A DNA stretch of 33,495 nucleotides from positions 1 to 33,495 of the forward strand of contig SLPQ01000082.1 in the NCBI GenBank assembly GCA_007131925.1, written 5' to 3'. The notes beneath the pieces were generated by a model that saw only the letters and a program-made list of their open reading frames with translations, was not told where the DNA came from and made no database searches. The stretch is from Candidatus Brocadiia bacterium. Lineage in GTDB: Bacteria; Planctomycetota; DG-23; SLPQ01. Shown in pieces: positions 3,308 to 21,927 of this stretch (its first letter is position 1; the number at the start of each line of letters is the position of its first letter). The position numbers were made by a program, and so were the translations under genes.

Positions 3308-5428
3308 TCAACCGCCCATCCCGTAGGCTTTCAGCATGTCATCAATTCCCTGCTCGCGACCGGTCAGGCCAAAGCGCTCATCCCGGAGTCGCTCGAGCAG
3401 GGCCGGGTCTGAAGGCATCACCCGGCGCCCCCCCAGCGAATCCCACCGCCTGAACGTGCCGCTGCCCCATATCACCTGGGGCACATTGACCGCGAGGTTG
3501 TGATTAAGCAGGAGATCGCGCAGCACGAGGCTGTTCAAGTCCACAAGCCGGCGGGCGCGTACCATGTCAACCGCCTCGCCGGCTGTGGCCCGGCGGGCCA
3601 TGTCATCGAGCGTCTCCTGGAGCTCTGTAAAGTTGAGGCCCAGGCGCAAAAACGCGATGCGCTCTTGAACATCAGCATCGTCCCCGGCTGCGGCGGCGGC
3701 CCTGTTGAGAAGCTCGTGCAGCCCGGCTGCCGCTTGCGGATTGTAACGGTAGTCTGCCGGCGAATTATGAGTGGCTGCAACGCCGGCGCGTGTGAGCGCT
3801 TCGACTCGCTGAAAGTATCGTTCGACAAAGGGCGCACCGGCGCCAAAGCCGCTTCGCGTGTAGTCACGTATGATCTCTCCGGCCGTCAGTCGCGGGTTCC
3901 AGGTCAGCCGCGCCGTGGCGTAGTAGGAGAGCCCCAGGGTGGCCCAGTTGTGGTTGATGTGGTCAAAGTCGGTCTGGGTCATACCCGCACCCGCAAAATA
4001 GCGCATGTTGTCCGCCAGCCTGCCGACAATTGAGCAGAGCTTGCCGTGGCGGCGGTTTATGAGCAGGATGTTGGGCCGCCAGAAGATGCGCCTTGCCCCG
4101 GCCTGCCGCCATCCTTCCCAGCGGTCTCTGTCCTCGGGCACGTAGCGCAGCACGAGGTTCGGGTGAAGCCGGCGCTCGACGGGCGGGTGGGAAAAGACGC
4201 TATACGCGCTGACGCCAAACAGCAGGTCAGGATGCTCGCTGGTGACGATGTCGGCAATGCTGTTCCAGTAAAAGATCATCCGGTCGGTAAGCGATACGTA
4301 AGGGACTCGTTCGCGCCTGCGGGCAGGTCTGTCCGGACGGGTCCTGGCACCGAAGGTCAGCAGGTTGATCCGGGGCCCGTGGGGCGGGTCCAGCGCCCGG
4401 CAGTTCTCGCAAAGGCACCAGCCGGTGTTGCTGCCACCGTCGTTGGGGTCGAGTGAGACGAGAGCGGTGTCGGGGTTTGCATTGACACGCCGGATGATGT
4501 CGGAGGCAACGTGCCTGATGAGCTGCGGATTTGACTTGCACAGCCGAAAACGGCTGTCGCCGCCCTGGTCGCGCCCTCCATCGGCCTGCAGGGCAAACCA
4601 TTCGGGGCGCTCCGTCAAGTAGCGATCGGCATCACGCAGGCCACCGCCTGCATGTCCAAACCGGGGCATGCGCCCGCCCAGACGCTGCCAGTCCATCCAC
4701 GAGGGGCCGATCCGGCTGCTGAGGGCGCGCTCGTGGCTGCGGCGCCATTCGTCCACACTGATGCCCAGGGCCCTCAGGCCCGTCTCGCCGCGCTCACGCA
4801 TGCGACCCCACCTCATCCCGCGTGCCCCCACCACGGGTGTGTAGCTGATGTCGAGAGGACCGACTTCCACCGTGGCCCGCCGTGGCACGACCTTGCCCGT
4901 CTCCCCCGGCCACAGGTAGCGGCAGCCAAGCTCTTCCAGAAGCTCTATGACGGCATGGCGGATGCCGTTTGGGTCCTCGTGACCCGGGGCGCTGGTCGGC
5001 CCACCCATCAAAACAAGGGCATTGCCCCTGGTCTTCAGCCGGATGCCCCCGACGCCCAGCCCTTCGGTATCGATACGCATGGCCTGCGCCAGTTCGGTCT
5101 GACCTATGAGGACGAAGCTTTCAACGCCGACAGGCAGCCTGTTTGTCGTGCTGACCACGCGCCCATTCGCGAGACGCCCCTGGAGCTCTGTCTCCTCGAT
5201 GATCAAGAGGTCCGCGCCGGACATCTGCCGGATGTGGCCGGCCAGCAGAGCCGCCGCCTCCCTGTCGGCGCGCTGCGCGGCCGCCCCGCCGGGCAGCACA
5301 ATCACAGCTGAAGGCTTACCTTCATCCGTCAGCCGCACGGGAGCATCCGCAAGGGCTATACTCCCCGCTGCCGGTACAACCAGAAACAGCAGTGACGCTG
5401 TCCGCCAAAGAAGATTCGTGCTGCCCAT
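3308..5428 (-). CDS. DUF4838 domain protein, glycoside-hydrolase-like, secreted
   Basis: This is a 706-residue exported protein. Residues 1-27 are a signal peptide (ASLLFLVVPAAGSIALA, likely cut before DAPVRL). Residues of about 35-195 resemble the alpha-glucuronidase (GH67-type) N-terminal domain, with the DREAAALLAGHIRQMSGADL pattern and the GIRHAVIELLEELGCRYLWP segment. Residues of about 200-500 match DUF4838, including the paired-cysteine segment WCLCENC at 337-343 and the preceding SLDPNDGG. DUF4838 proteins are common in polysaccharide-using PVC and Bacteroidetes bacteria and are assumed to act on glucuronate- or uronate-bearing glycans, but the catalytic reaction is not established. 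The frame opens at 5458; the ATG at 5428 is chosen because GGAGGG lies about five bases before it. Confidence 0.85.
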   Translation of the reverse strand: MGSTNLLWRTASLLFLVVPAAGSIALADAPVRLTDEGKPSAVIVLPGGAAAQRADREAAALLAGHIRQMSGADLLIIEETELQGRLANGRVVSTTNRLPVGVESFVLIGQTELAQAMRIDTEGLGVGGIRLKTRGNALVLMGGPTSAPGHEDPNGIRHAVIELLEELGCRYLWPGETGKVVPRRATVEVGPLDISYTPVVGARGMRWGRMRERGETGLRALGISVDEWRRSHERALSSRIGPSWMDWQRLGGRMPRFGHAGGGLRDADRYLTERPEWFALQADGGRDQGGDSRFRLCKSNPQLIRHVASDIIRRVNANPDTALVSLDPNDGGSNTGWCLCENCRALDPPHGPRINLLTFGARTRPDRPARRRERVPYVSLTDRMIFYWNSIADIVTSEHPDLLFGVSAYSVFSHPPVERRLHPNLVLRYVPEDRDRWEGWRQAGARRIFWRPNILLINRRHGKLCSIVGRLADNMRYFAGAGMTQTDFDHINHNWATLGLSYYATARLTWNPRLTAGEIIRDYTRSGFGAGAPFVERYFQRVEALTRAGVAATHNSPADYRYNPQAAAGLHELLNRAAAAAGDDADVQERIAFLRLGLNFTELQETLDDMARRATAGEAVDMVRARRLVDLNSLVLRDLLLNHNLAVNVPQVIWGSGTFRRWDSLGGRRVMPSDPALLERLRDERFGLTGREQGIDDMLKAYGMGG

Positions 5429-16330: not shown

Positions 16331-16368
16331 TTCCACTGATGGTGCCAGGCAACCGGCGGGAACTTCCC

Positions 16369-17178
16369 ATGGCCAACATTCACCGTATGACGAAAAAGCG
16401 CCTCGGTGAGCTATTGCTGCAGGAAGACGTCATAAACGAGGAGCAGTTGAGTGAGGGCCTCGAAGAGCAGCAGCAGACAGGCGAGCTTATCGGGGATATC
16501 CTCGTGCGAAAGGGCTTTTGCACGGAGTCCGATGTTGCACGTACTATATCTACGCAGTTTTCCTTTCCATACATCTCGGTGATGCACTACTACATCGCAC
16601 CGGAGATGGTGGGGCTTTTTCCGCTCGAAGAGCTCGAAAAGAACCTCTTTGTACCTATCGACCGCTTCGGCGACGTACTGAACGTCGTTGTAGCCGGCCT
16701 GCTCGACCAGGATGTCGTTGATGAGATCGAAAGGACCACCAACTGCACCGCCCAGGTCTATGTCGGCATGGTTAGCGAGGTCAAGCAGGTGATAAAGGAG
16801 AAGTTCGCCGCACAGACACTTGCACCGGCCGCCGCCCAGAAGGCCGAGGATATTGCGGTCGATGTCACCTCGCTGCCGTCAGAGAACCTCGAAAGCGACT
16901 CCTCGGCCGATCTCGACCCCGCACTGGCTGATCTCCAGGAGGCTCTCAGCGCCGCCGGAGGCGAGCGGTCTCTGACAGAGCCGGATGCAGGCGATGATCT
17001 CAACGAGCCGCCCGCAGGACATCCCGGCCAGCAGGCAGGGGGGGTGGATTTGCATGATGAGCCCCAAGATGCCGGGGAAGAAGTCGCCGGCGAAGAGGCC
17101 GTCGAGACGCAAGACGAGGATGAGCAGGAAGACCCACCAAAAAAGCCAAGGCGATTCAGGTTTTTCGAAAGTGACTGA
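16369..17178 (+). CDS. Stand-alone MshEN / type II secretion GspE N-terminal domain protein
   Basis: This 269-residue protein consists of an N-terminal MshEN-like module (about residues 7-140) and a long acidic, Pro/Glu/Asp-rich tail ending in basic KKPRRFRFFESD. The module shows the paired pattern seen in c-di-GMP-binding MshE: RLGELLLQEDVINEEQLSEG then EEQQ, and IGDILVRKGFCTESDVART then FSFPYI. There is no ATPase domain, so it is not a secretion or pilus motor. It could sense c-di-GMP or dock on a pilus/secretion ATPase; this is inference. The 16369 ATG is preferred because the predicted transcript starts near 16337; an ATG at 16387 is also possible. It is divergent from ribE and convergent with the glycosyltransferase gene 13 bp away. 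Confidence 0.8.
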   Translation: MANIHRMTKKRLGELLLQEDVINEEQLSEGLEEQQQTGELIGDILVRKGFCTESDVARTISTQFSFPYISVMHYYIAPEMVGLFPLEELEKNLFVPIDRFGDVLNVVVAGLLDQDVVDEIERTTNCTAQVYVGMVSEVKQVIKEKFAAQTLAPAAAQKAEDIAVDVTSLPSENLESDSSADLDPALADLQEALSAAGGERSLTEPDAGDDLNEPPAGHPGQQAGGVDLHDEPQDAGEEVAGEEAVETQDEDEQEDPPKKPRRFRFFESD

Positions 17179-17191
17179 CATTTAGGGCTTC

Positions 17192-18355
17192 TCAGCTGGC
17201 CTTAAGCAGCTTTTCATAGAGAGAAGCGATACTTTCGACCATCCGGTCCGCCCCGAACATCTCCACACACAGCTCTTTACCACGCGCTGCCATTGCCGCA
17301 GCATCCTCCGGCGCTCTAAGGGACCATGTAATGGCCTGCGCCAGCTCATCGACAGCGCCGGGGCCGAGCAGCCGGCCGGTCACACCCTCCTGCACCACCT
17401 CGCGCGCGCCGTCTATGTCATATGAAATCACCGGAACCCCTGCCAGAAGCGCCTGCGGCAGCACACGCGCAAGCCCTTCCCGCAGCGAGCAGTGCACCAG
17501 GAGGTCCATCGCGCCTATCATGGCCCCCACACGGGACGGGTCCACAAGACCTGCAAAGACTATCGAGTCAAACACGCCCAGCTCCCGAGCACGATCAGAG
17601 AGCGCCTCTCGCAGGATGCCGTCGCCAACGAATAGAAAGCGAGTGTCAGGAAATTGCTTCAAGACTCGCGGCATCGCCTCGATGAGATACTTGTGGCCCT
17701 TCAGGTGGAAAAGGCGCGCCACCTTTCCCACAACCGGCACTCCGCCTGGGATGCCCAGCTCTCTGCGGACTGATGCGCGCTCTTTCCCGGCATCCAGAAA
17801 TGTCTCCAGCTCCATGCCGCTGTAAATGGTATGAAACTTTTCACGAGATGCCACGCCTGCTGCGACGGCCTTTTCAGCCATGGCGTCGCAGACTGTTATT
17901 ATCGCGTCGCACCTTCTGGCGGCCCAGCGCTCAAGTGAAATGTAAAGCGCGCTGACAAGCCTGTTCTGATAGGGGTGAAAAGGCAGGCCGTGAATCGTGT
18001 GCACAATCACCGGCACGCCGCAGGCGGTGGCAGCGGCGCGCCCGAGAATGCCCGCCTTCGATGAATGGGTGTGGACGATCTCGGGCTTCTCGCGCCGGAT
18101 GATGCGCTTGAGGCTGTAATAAGCTGCCGCGTCCTTAAAGGGGCTTATCTCCCGGCGCAACAGGTCGACTATTTCGATTCGCACGCCGCTTTCGGCAGCG
18201 CGGTTTATCAGCTCACCCTCCGGACCTATTGCCGGGCCGGTAACAAGGAGCGTCTCCCAGCCTTCGCGGCGGTCGAGCCCTTCGACGGTGTAAAGCGTGT
18301 TTTCCTGGGCGCCGCCCAGGATCATCCGCGTGATTATGTGGACTGCCTTTGCCAG
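17192..18355 (-). CDS. GT4 family glycosyltransferase with probable CTG start
   Basis: This protein of about 387 residues has the GT-B fold of family 4. The N-terminal domain includes VHIITRMILGGAQENTL, the VHTHSSKAGILGRAAA segment and HTIHGLPFH. The C-terminal domain includes GKVARLFHLKGHKYLIEAMP, then LFVGDG and the sugar-nucleotide motif CSLREGLARVLPQALLAGVP. The first in-frame ATG (18325) would cut off the first beta strand. Upstream, the frame runs to the truA stop with no ATG, GTG or TTG. A CTG at 18355 has GAGG seven bases before it, overlapping the truA stop, and restores the strand. The sugar donor and acceptor are unknown. Confidence 0.85.
   Translation of the reverse strand: MAKAVHIITRMILGGAQENTLYTVEGLDRREGWETLLVTGPAIGPEGELINRAAESGVRIEIVDLLRREISPFKDAAAYYSLKRIIRREKPEIVHTHSSKAGILGRAAATACGVPVIVHTIHGLPFHPYQNRLVSALYISLERWAARRCDAIITVCDAMAEKAVAAGVASREKFHTIYSGMELETFLDAGKERASVRRELGIPGGVPVVGKVARLFHLKGHKYLIEAMPRVLKQFPDTRFLFVGDGILREALSDRARELGVFDSIVFAGLVDPSRVGAMIGAMDLLVHCSLREGLARVLPQALLAGVPVISYDIDGAREVVQEGVTGRLLGPGAVDELAQAITWSLRAPEDAAAMAARGKELCVEMFGADRMVESIASLYEKLLKAS
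17194..17214 (+). terminator. Weak terminator candidate for the MshEN protein gene
   Basis: AGCTG (17194-17198) and CAGCT (17207-17211) pair, followed by TTTT. It lies inside the end of the convergent glycosyltransferase gene. The stem is only 5 bp. Confidence 0.3.
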
Positions 18356-18364
18356 GACGTCACC

Positions 18365-19129
18365 TCAATAACGAACCTCCACCATACACAGCCCCTCGGG
18401 CCGAGCTGTCGCTCCAGCGGCGCGCCGGTCACGAGCGGCCATTATCGCGGGGATGTCGTCCGGCTCGATGTGACCCCTGCCCACGTCAATGAGCGTGCCC
18501 ACCATGATCCTTACCATCATGTAGAGAAACCCGTCACCGGTAAAGAATATGCGGATTTGATCGTGGTCCTCGTCGAAGGTTATCTCTTCGACAGTCCGCA
18601 CGGTATCTTTCTCGACGAAGCCCTCCGCCCTGAATGAATCGAAATCGTGCCTGCCCACCAGGTGCCCGGCCGCCTCCCGCATCATCCGACAGTCCAGCCG
18701 TTGCCTTGACCAGTAGACAAACCGCCTTTGAAGAACCTCTCGCACGGGCCGCGTCGATATAGTGTAGCGGTAGACCTTGGTCCTTGCGTCGCGGTTCGAG
18801 TGAAAGTCAATGGGCACGTCTATCGCCGACAGCACCGCAGCATCCTCATCGAGATTGGCGTTTATGCCGCCGACGATCCGATCTGCCGGCAGCTCGCTCG
18901 CGGTGCGAAAGTTTGCCACCTGGCCCTCGGCATGCACACCGGCATCGGTGCGACCCGCCCCCGTGAGGCTGACCCGTTCACCGGTGACCCTGGCGAGCGC
19001 CTCCTCGAGGCAGCGCTGCACCGTGCGCCGGCTGCCCTGGCGCTGCCAGCCGGAAAATCCGGTGCCATCGTACTCCACCGTAAGCTTTACATTGCGCCTG
19101 CGGTCGCCGGATGTCCCGCGGGAAGTCAA
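18365..19129 (-). CDS. truA: tRNA pseudouridine(38-40) synthase
   Basis: This 254-residue enzyme makes pseudouridine in the anticodon arm of many tRNAs. It has LTVEYDGTGFSGWQRQ near the N-terminus, the catalytic GRTDAGVHAEGQVA (Asp62), and FHSNRDARTKVYRYTI. The last family motif is FLYMMVRIMVGTLIDVGRG. The start codon appears to be TTG at 19129 with AAGGGGG about five bases before it; no ATG or GTG is available near the conserved N-terminus. It begins 19 bp after asd, and its TGA overlaps the ribosome site of the glycosyltransferase gene. Confidence 0.95.
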   Translation of the reverse strand: MTSRGTSGDRRRNVKLTVEYDGTGFSGWQRQGSRRTVQRCLEEALARVTGERVSLTGAGRTDAGVHAEGQVANFRTASELPADRIVGGINANLDEDAAVLSAIDVPIDFHSNRDARTKVYRYTISTRPVREVLQRRFVYWSRQRLDCRMMREAAGHLVGRHDFDSFRAEGFVEKDTVRTVEEITFDEDHDQIRIFFTGDGFLYMMVRIMVGTLIDVGRGHIEPDDIPAIMAARDRRAAGATARPEGLCMVEVRY

Positions 19130-19148: not shown

Positions 19149-20150
<1,002 letters not shown>

Positions 20151-20167: not shown

Positions 20168-21115
20168 CTACCTGATCCGTCTGATTCGAGCGGCCTCCCG
20201 CTCAGTCATCGCCCTCGACGCCACCAGCTGCGCCAGAAATCTCTCGCCGTCCTCCCAATAGCCTGCAGTCCTGGCCACGCCGCCTGCACGCTCGAGCCAG
20301 TACCCGTTGAAAAGCTCCATGAAAAGCTCGCGCGTGTACTTTGCCCACATCGAAGAGAGCGCCACGGTCGTATCCTCCGTGTCGGCGCGCACCTTGAAAC
20401 GGACCAGCATCTCCCGCTGGTGCTGTCTGAGCCGATAGATGCTTGACTCATCACTCTCCAGAAGCACATCCATATGCGCATGGGGAAAGGCGATGTCCAG
20501 AAGGCCGCCATAAAACTTGCGCCCTCCCTGCCTGTCAACCGTAAGACAGATCCCTTCATCGCCGAATCGACGCCAGAGCTCCTGCATCAGCAGTGCCGCC
20601 CTGCCGAAGAGCAGCGTGGCCTTGTTTTCCAGGCGCTCCAGGATGCCGTTGTACCTGATCTCATCCACGACGCACATCCAGGCGCCCAGGTACTGCACAC
20701 CCTCTTGCAGCAGGCAGCGCCTCAGCGAGCCGCTCGCCTGGTGAATTTCACTTACGGCACACCCGCAAGGCAGCTCCAGGCGACCGCTGTACCACGGGAG
20801 GCCAAGCGCCTCTCCTGCGCCTTCCATCACCCACAGGCGCAAAAACCCCTCGAGGTCCCGCGCCTCATGCGATGTGAGCTGCGCAAACGAAAGTACCGCT
20901 CTTTCAAGCGAAGCGATCCCCCTGGAACTACTGTAGATCCCCTTGCTGTCGGCGACCCTGAGCGCGCCCGCATCCACAAGGTGCCACTGCGGCCATGGCC
21001 GGCGAGGATCGATCCTGCCTGGGACGGCGACTGCATTTGCCGCGACGACAAGCGGCCCCAGCCTCGGCCCGTACCCTGCCTCATCAATCCCCGCCAGTAT
21101 CACCAGAGAGCCCAT
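20168..21115 (-). CDS. RNase HII-like protein (unusual subfamily)
   Basis: This 315-residue protein is about 100 residues longer than RNase HII but keeps its landmarks: AGIDEAGYGPRLGPLVVAA (Asp11, Glu12), DSK at 56-58, Asp194 in LTVDRQGG, and Asp245 exactly 14 residues before the Lys of AKYTRE, as in E. coli RNase HII. So all four metal-binding acids are in place. The GRG motif that reads the 2'-OH of the ribonucleotide is GYG here, and a large insertion lies between DSK and Asp194. It probably binds or cuts an unusual nucleic-acid substrate; a standard rnhB may exist elsewhere. The frame extends to 21400, but the ATG at 21115 fits the family start and the promoter at 21147-21174. Confidence 0.75.
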   Translation of the reverse strand: MGSLVILAGIDEAGYGPRLGPLVVAANAVAVPGRIDPRRPWPQWHLVDAGALRVADSKGIYSSSRGIASLERAVLSFAQLTSHEARDLEGFLRLWVMEGAGEALGLPWYSGRLELPCGCAVSEIHQASGSLRRCLLQEGVQYLGAWMCVVDEIRYNGILERLENKATLLFGRAALLMQELWRRFGDEGICLTVDRQGGRKFYGGLLDIAFPHAHMDVLLESDESSIYRLRQHQREMLVRFKVRADTEDTTVALSSMWAKYTRELFMELFNGYWLERAGGVARTAGYWEDGERFLAQLVASRAMTEREAARIRRIR

Positions 21116-21146
21116 CCGCACGGCTTGGAAGTCTTGGAAAATATAG

Positions 21147-21174
21147 ATTCTAAGCTCTAAATGCCTGAAGTCAA
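21147..21174 (-). promoter_or_regulatory. Predicted promoter of the RNase HII-like/asd/truA/GT operon
   Basis: On the minus strand TTGACT (21174-21169) and TAGAAT (21152-21147) are 16 bp apart, each matching five of six consensus bases. The expected transcript starts near 21140, giving a leader of about 25 bases. The mobile element begins 13 bp upstream of the -35 box. Confidence 0.65.
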
Positions 21175-21177
21175 TCC

Positions 21178-21186
21178 ACCGGGGCG
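21178..21186. repeat. Left target-site duplication of the IS remnant
   Basis: ACCGGGGCG lies directly left of the left inverted repeat and matches ACCGGGCG (21713-21720) directly right of the other one, apart from one extra G. IS4-family elements make 9-bp duplications in the IS50 group. Confidence 0.6.
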
Positions 21187-21202
21187 CTGACTCATCCCCA
21201 GT
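21187..21202 (+). repeat. Left terminal inverted repeat
   Basis: CTGACTCATCCCCAGT reads inward from the left end and is the exact complement of 21697-21712. Confidence 0.8.
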
Positions 21203-21221
21203 TTCCTCGGGTGAGTGAGCG

Positions 21222-21618
21222 TCAGAGCAGGGATAGTGCGATGCGCAGGGGGCCGATGGGGTTATATATGGCGTGGCGGCCGATGGTGAAAAGGCTGCAT
21301 TCTTCGGCGCGATTATTGGAGCACCAGTACTCCAGTACTTAGGCTTATAGAGCCTGACCGTCTGCAGGCCGACCGCCACCAGCACTATGTACGCCAGCAC
21401 CAGCAGCAGCCTTACCAGCTTCGCCGGGATAGTTGTCTGTCAAGCGATCCAACTGCTTGATAGAACGTCTGGCGGCTTAAGACGCGGCCCAACTTGGCTA
21501 TGGAGGTCCGGTCCACAGACAGTGCCGCCGCCACCACACGGCTCAAGGTCCTGGCCTGTAAACGCCGAAGATGAACGCAGACGGACATTACCCATTTGAC
21601 TGATGCAGCATAACCCAT
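21222..21618 (-). pseudogene. IS4-family transposase, N- and C-terminal fragments
   Basis: The first piece starts at the ATG 21618 after an excellent ribosome site (AAGGGGAGGAG) and runs 68 codons to a TAA at 21412. It includes RRLQARTLSRVVAAALSVDR then TSIAKLGRVL, the typical transposase head. After a deletion, a second frame reads KLVRLLLVLAYIVLVAVGLQ, a typical C-terminal membrane-like helix of these transposases. A third frame then reads EECSLFTIGRHAIYNPIGPL and RIALSLL before the stop at 21222-21224, the usual tail (SLF.IGR). The catalytic DDE core is absent. The two C-terminal frames are split by a further frameshift at about 21320-21345. Confidence 0.65.
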
Positions 21619-21676
21619 GGCCGGCTCCTCCCCTTAAGGCCTTCTTGTCAAAGAACTTATCGGTCAGGAGCCGGCC
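21619..21676 (-). promoter_or_regulatory. Stem-loop that would hide the transposase ribosome binding site
   Basis: GGCCGGCTCCT (21619-21629) and AGGAGCCGGCC (21666-21676) are a perfect 11-bp inverted repeat ending one base before the ATG of the transposase fragment. The AGGAG ribosome site is in the stem, and a smaller stem TTCTT/AAGAA lies in the loop. Such stems repress translation of transposase from read-through transcripts in several IS families. Confidence 0.5.
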
Positions 21677-21696
21677 TCTTCTATTACTGCCACAAG

Positions 21697-21712
21697 ACTG
21701 GGGATGAGTCAG
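21697..21712 (-). repeat. Right terminal inverted repeat
   Basis: ACTGGGGATGAGTCAG on the plus strand, the exact complement of the left repeat; flanked on the right by ACCGGGCG. Confidence 0.8.
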
Positions 21713-21720
21713 ACCGGGCG
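21713..21720. repeat. Right target-site duplication of the IS remnant
   Basis: ACCGGGCG, equal to the left copy except for one missing G. Confidence 0.6.
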
Positions 21721-21871
21721 CAAGACGCCCTCCGCCGCCTCGCACACTTTCCAGAAAGAGACCGATCTACCGGTAGCTGTGGCCGGTATGGATCGTTTAA
21801 AGGCAGCCCGATAAAAGCCCTATCCGCCGCCCGGAAGAAGGTCGTGTGGACACGCCTGAATGGAGTTTTGC

Positions 21872-21899
21872 TTGACGTGGGAAGGCTGCGCCTTAGAAA
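21872..21899 (+). promoter_or_regulatory. Predicted promoter of the DUF2079 gene
   Basis: TTGACG (21872-21877) and TAGAAA (21894-21899) are 16 bp apart and 28 bp before the start codon, leaving room for the GGAGG at about 21918. Confidence 0.55.
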
Positions 21900-21927
21900 T
21901 GACGCATGAAAGGACGCGGAGGACAAG

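Follow-up and report, generated by a model that had tools for sequence, protein, structure and literature searches.

RNase HII enzymes excise stray RNA building blocks from DNA. The window analyzed here, a stretch of 33,495 nucleotides from a Candidatus Brocadiia bacterium, carries a gene for a protein that resembles these enzymes but has GYG where the standard form has GRG, raising the question of whether it is an ordinary RNase HII in altered dress or an enzyme with a different job. In a 2007 survey, the sole planctomycete genome then available was found to have RNase HI only, without RNase HII (PMC1950709). In the current analysis, we argue that the protein very probably belongs to a divergent RNase HII clade that is catalytically intact and has replaced the standard enzyme in most Planctomycetota.

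The gene occupies positions 20168–21115 of the minus strand, running from an ATG at 21115 to a TAG ending at 20168, and was delimited by its open reading frame, its translation, and a match to Pfam RNase_HII. The encoded protein of 315 residues, whose N-terminus reads MGSLVILAGIDEAGYGPRLGPLVV, exceeds the 198 residues of E. coli RNase HII (comparison sequence taken from the K-12 genome) by 117, in keeping with the roughly 100 extra residues and large insertion noted in a preliminary description of this DNA. The four RNase HII acids listed there are all present in the translation: the predicted first two metal-binding acids, D11 and E12 (21080–21085), the putative third, D194 (20534–20536), which lies within a D[R/K]xGGRxxY motif, and the putative fourth, D245 (20381–20383). 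G14-Y15-G16 (21068–21076), a candidate GxG loop for the ribonucleotide 2′-OH that is followed by P17, and the D56-S57-K58 motif (20942–20950) lie between the second and third acids. The sequence A258-KYTRE263 (20327–20344) includes K259 and R262, which match K138 and R141 of T. maritima, and the spacing claimed for it is likewise that of E. coli, with the same 12 residues between D245 and AK as in KGD-(12)-AKVTRD. Nearer the C-terminus, T283-A-G-Y286 (20258–20269) supplies a match to Tyr163 of T. maritima RNase H2. These features, like the gene itself, are all read from the minus strand. Two extra segments were delineated, one between DSK and the third acid (residues about 78–150, approximately 20666–20884), which contains a conserved PWY...LP, and another between the third and fourth acids (residues about 200–240, approximately 20396–20518). 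Compared to T. maritima RNase H2, length is gained in three places: ahead of DSK, from DSK to the third acid, and from there to the fourth; D11 and D194 are 183 residues apart (89 for T. maritima D18–D107), and D194 and D245 are 51 apart (17 in T. maritima).

Profile searches assign the protein to RNase HII, albeit distantly. Pfam RNase_HII (PF01351) matched with 36.6 bits (E 5.7e-9) over a cut-off of 25.8, mainly across the first 23 profile positions, whereas the NCBIfam RNase HII equivalog models, whose cut-offs are 123 and more, were not reached (best 30.7 bits versus 167). All 50 family members scanned matched Pfam RNase_HII, and no other Pfam family was matched by more than one of them. 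In profile–profile comparison, the family matched RNase HII with a probability of 99.1 (E 1.5e-18), the alignment running via the DEAG, DSK, KAD...AASI.AK..RD, and GYP regions, and matched RNase HIII with a probability of 98.6 (E 1.4e-15). Searched against the PDB, the family profile found RNase HII/H2A chains (best E 1.3e-13) and, weakly, RNase HIII. An AlphaFold2 model built from two sequences only (the window protein and one relative, L002) had a pLDDT of 40, too low for the model to be relied on. The source assembly, which is 91% complete, holds the window protein as its sole PF01351 match, so no standard rnhB accompanies it in the assembled part of the genome; a weak RNase HI match was detected (C185, E 1.3e-8).

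The proposal of a separate type 2 RNase H subfamily, made in the preliminary description, has held up: the acid set is complete, the family is monophyletic, and it extends across the phylum. In a tree of 89 sequences and 202 columns, the family formed one clade with a bootstrap of 100, and a split with support 96 set the family and RNase HII apart from RNase HIII and the GTG group; being unrooted, the tree shows the distinctness of the family and not its order of origin. The window protein is best classified, on sequence grounds, as a member of a divergent RNase HII clade. With RNase HII and H2A (PF01351; T. maritima, E. coli, and A. fulgidus), the family shares the DE..D..D/E acids, a GxG followed by Pro, DSK, AK..R[D/E], a GY near the C-terminus, the absence of an N-terminal TBP-like domain, and the genomic slot. 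It differs from them in having GYG or GLG (GRG being standard and GKG the A. fulgidus form), in extra segments that total about 117 residues relative to E. coli RNase HII, in D[R/K]xGGRxxY after the third acid, in an often glutamate fourth acid, and in its separate clade below the equivalog cut-offs.

Several positions also recall RNase HIII (rnhC, TIGR00716). Both have a GxG with a non-Arg middle residue, an N...N motif, D[Q/K/R]xG at the third acid, and, in many members, E as the fourth acid; in the family, these correspond to N156...N164-K165, D[R/K]xG, and E at the fourth position. However, the family lacks the acid that follows GxG in RNase HIII, has a putative junction-reading Tyr, and coexists with RNase HI or RNase HIII, whereas RNase HIII sequences of the same phylum read GKGD, with D after GxG, and have no junction Tyr. 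The N-terminal TBP-like domain typical of RNase HIII was not found in the window protein, in which the first acid is residue 11 and no other Pfam domain was detected. A further set of proteins of about 500 residues, in which DETGTGE replaces DEAGRG (L054, L201, L203, L204, and L205, from genomes G047, G085, G067, G134, and G102), is likewise distantly related to PF01351 and forms a separate, long-branched clade; within the sample, it occurs in one family (f41) only.

Conservation was counted over 108 distinct members of the family. Invariant in all of them are D11, E12, G14, G20, D56-S57-K58, Y202, Y227, K259, R262, E263, and G285, while P17, Y286, and R313 are each kept in 107 and W108 in 104. 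Position 245 is always acidic (E in 66, D in 42), and D194 is present in 106, with G in the remaining two. Family-specific features are PWY...LP, FN...NKA, and D[R/K]xGGRxxY. Y286 aligns with SGYP/KGYP of RNase HII and with GAG/GSG, without Tyr, of RNase HIII, and by this alignment it is the likely equivalent of T. maritima Y163; R313 is probably the counterpart of T. maritima R182. The middle residue of GxG is Y in 87 members, L in 20, V in one, and never R. The replacement of GRG by GYG reported earlier therefore stands for the window protein, although Tyr is not a constant of the family.

The family extends through most of the sampled Planctomycetota. A contig scan with patterns drawn from one sequence returned a single locus, a relative of 56% identity in the record of a Planctomycetota bacterium, and relatives were found in 51 of 59 related genomes. 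A 50-member profile matched 362 of 392 Planctomycetota genomes, many of them incomplete drafts; nine of the 362, with E values of about 1e-5 to 1e-9, were set aside as weak cross-matches because the PF01351 gene of the genome is RNase HII or an RNase HII relative, leaving the family in about 353 of 392 (~90%). When the sample was restricted to genomes with a completeness of 90% or more and no more than 5% contamination, 214 of 217 matched, at least one of these (G008) being a cross-match. Nearly all family genomes carry a single copy without internal stops, and no relatives were found on viral contigs or plasmids.

All full-length PF01351 matches listed for the 392 genomes were then read and assigned to classes by motif. 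Most of these proved to be RNase HIII with GKGD; a first tally, which had credited 21 of the 59 genomes with standard RNase HII, was dropped on this ground, since the loci, when read, were mostly of that type, and the co-occurrence tests use the motif-corrected classes. GRG RNase HII was identified in eight genomes from seven families (G003, G008, G024, G039, G048, G068, G072, and G106), all of which lack the window-protein family, and in none of the roughly 353 family-positive genomes. This mutual exclusion has a hypergeometric P of 4.8e-9 (353 positive, 39 negative) when relatedness is ignored; the true P is larger owing to relatedness, yet seven separate families agree. Two further loci are of note. 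L191 (G350:C21:13600-14450), perhaps carried by a mobile element, is RNase HII-like and has GLG. G350 encodes RNase HIII and the window-protein family besides, so exclusion is not strict in this genome once GLG enzymes are included. L036 (G029:C28) is RNase HII-like and reads DEAGKG, as in A. fulgidus; its genome lacks the window-protein family.

Within the 59-genome set, the family occurs with RNase HI in 32 genomes, with RNase HIII in 12, with both in two, and alone in five; RNase HI is paired with RNase HII in five genomes and stands alone in one (66% complete), and RNase HIII occurs without GRG RNase HII or the family in two, one of them G029. RNase HI and RNase HIII seldom occur together (Fisher P 8e-8), whereas the family is indifferent to either (P 1.0). 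In other bacteria, RNase HI is combined with RNase HII in 80% of genomes and RNase HII with RNase HIII in 7%, and RNase HI with RNase HIII alone was seen in none (PMC1950709). Since the family pairs with either of two mutually exclusive enzymes, as RNase HII does elsewhere, it appears to occupy the RNase HII slot. Found in ~90% of genomes and never beside a GRG enzyme, it most likely does the job of standard RNase HII for nearly the whole phylum.

What, then, does the missing Arg mean? The preliminary description had taken its loss, together with the extra segments, to point to an enzyme that cuts a different hybrid or structure, and that idea can draw on the absence of Arg from all 108 members, on the about 117 additional residues, on scores far under the RNase HII equivalog cut-offs, and on the RNase HIII-like positions. 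Published mutants nevertheless contradict the notion that Arg reads the ribonucleotide. In T. maritima RNase H2, it is the backbone amides of the GRG loop, together with Tyr163, that touch the 2′-OH; R22A left activity on most substrates unchanged and slightly lowered single-ribonucleotide cutting, whereas Y163F had a severe effect (PMC3025331). In RNase HIII, the glycines alone are conserved in GxG, and in yeast RNase H2 a change of the junction Tyr combined with P45D yielded an RNase H1-like enzyme (PMC4132731). Given the mild effect of R22A and the DEAGKG of A. fulgidus RNase HII (PDB 1i39/3p83), the lost Arg is weak evidence for a new substrate, whereas the retention of P17 and Y286, on which the choice of junctions depends, speaks for ordinary junction cutting. 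That the family and GRG RNase HII never share a genome also implies that their functions overlap, and the genome distribution is that of an ordinary RNase HII. Thus, an altered substrate choice is considered unlikely.

Nor do the other alternatives fit as well. A general RNase H that does the work of RNase HI or RNase HIII on long RNA/DNA hybrids would accord with the type 2 relationship and with the E at the fourth acid and N...NK motif common to RNase HIII, but the family coexists with RNase HI in 34 of 51 genomes and with RNase HIII in 14 of 51, although those two enzymes largely exclude each other, and it keeps the Tyr while lacking the acid after GxG; we regard this possibility as very improbable. 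The loss of D194 in two members, L012 and L080, could hint at a catalytically dead homologue with a structural or binding role, a scenario that is scarcely credible considering that the window protein and nearly all members across the phylum retain the four acids as well as the Lys of DSK, and that their single-copy frames are intact and uninterrupted by stops. The two members themselves are located at 4072–5091 of L080 (genome G035), which reads DENG and CGK, and at 1489–2457 of L012 (G015), which reads IGKQGG. In G035, RNase HI, HII, and HIII were not detected either, and this genome may be without a working RNase H or use an unrecognized one. More speculatively, the family could join the prokaryotic RNases H as a fourth kind: a type 2 enzyme specific to the phylum, in which the extra segments provide a partner or substrate not available to standard RNase HII and so account for the displacement of the latter; these segments might, for example, couple the enzyme to planctomycete replication or repair machinery. 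We consider this a minority possibility.

The reading as a divergent RNase HII also suggests a mechanism. In the two-metal mechanism that type 2 RNases H use, and that is most likely shared here, D11, E12, D194, and D/E245 would hold the metals, while the GxG backbone and Y286 would read the ribonucleotide 2′-OH; the Lys of DSK corresponds to T. maritima K47, which contacts a substrate phosphate (PMC3025331). The nick would be placed 5′ of a single ribonucleotide or RNA–DNA junction and would both start ribonucleotide excision repair and trim RNA primers. From conserved residues, clade membership, and genomic distribution, we infer this active-site geometry, substrate, and cellular role, and two-metal cutting 5′ of the ribonucleotide at RNA–DNA junctions, as the opening step of ribonucleotide excision repair, is most likely what the enzyme does. 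Counting against the overall reading are the loss of D194 in two and of Y286 in one of the 108 members, the extra segments, the RNase HIII-like positions, and the GLG gene that accompanies the family in G350, along with the motif-based classing of the other genes and the incompleteness of many genomes.

The family fills the gap left in 2007: in ~90% of the 392 Planctomycetota genomes sampled, a divergent enzyme of the RNase HII type is present and a GRG enzyme is absent. How a whole phylum begins ribonucleotide excision repair can be tested directly on it, and, with no member using the Arg of GRG, it serves as a natural experiment on the residues that junction reading truly needs. A new family model is also warranted, as current equivalog models fail to recognize these proteins. 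A search of freely accessible literature found no paper on the family.

With regard to genomic context, the gene was described as the first of an operon that continues with asd, truA, and a gene for a glycosyltransferase, and the arrangement agrees with this: Pfam confirms the families of an aspartate-semialdehyde dehydrogenase (asd; 19149–20150, Semialdhyde_dh/dhC), a truA-type tRNA pseudouridine synthase (18365–19129, PseudoU_synth_1), and a group 1/family 4 glycosyltransferase (17192–18325), all on the minus strand, with asd, the next gene downstream, starting 17 bases past the stop of the RNase HII-like gene. Because asd adjoins the family gene in only 2 of 40 relatives examined, the association is local to a few genomes, and since no gene recurs in more than 4 of 41 family contexts, the neighborhood points to no functional partner. 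Upstream, an 812-base gap (21116–21927) without an Rfam match separates the RNase HII-like gene from a divergent gene for a DUF2079 membrane protein. On the plus strand, opposite to the flanking genes, positions 16339–17178 encode a 279-residue protein that has an MshEN domain and whose C-terminus forms a long acidic tail.
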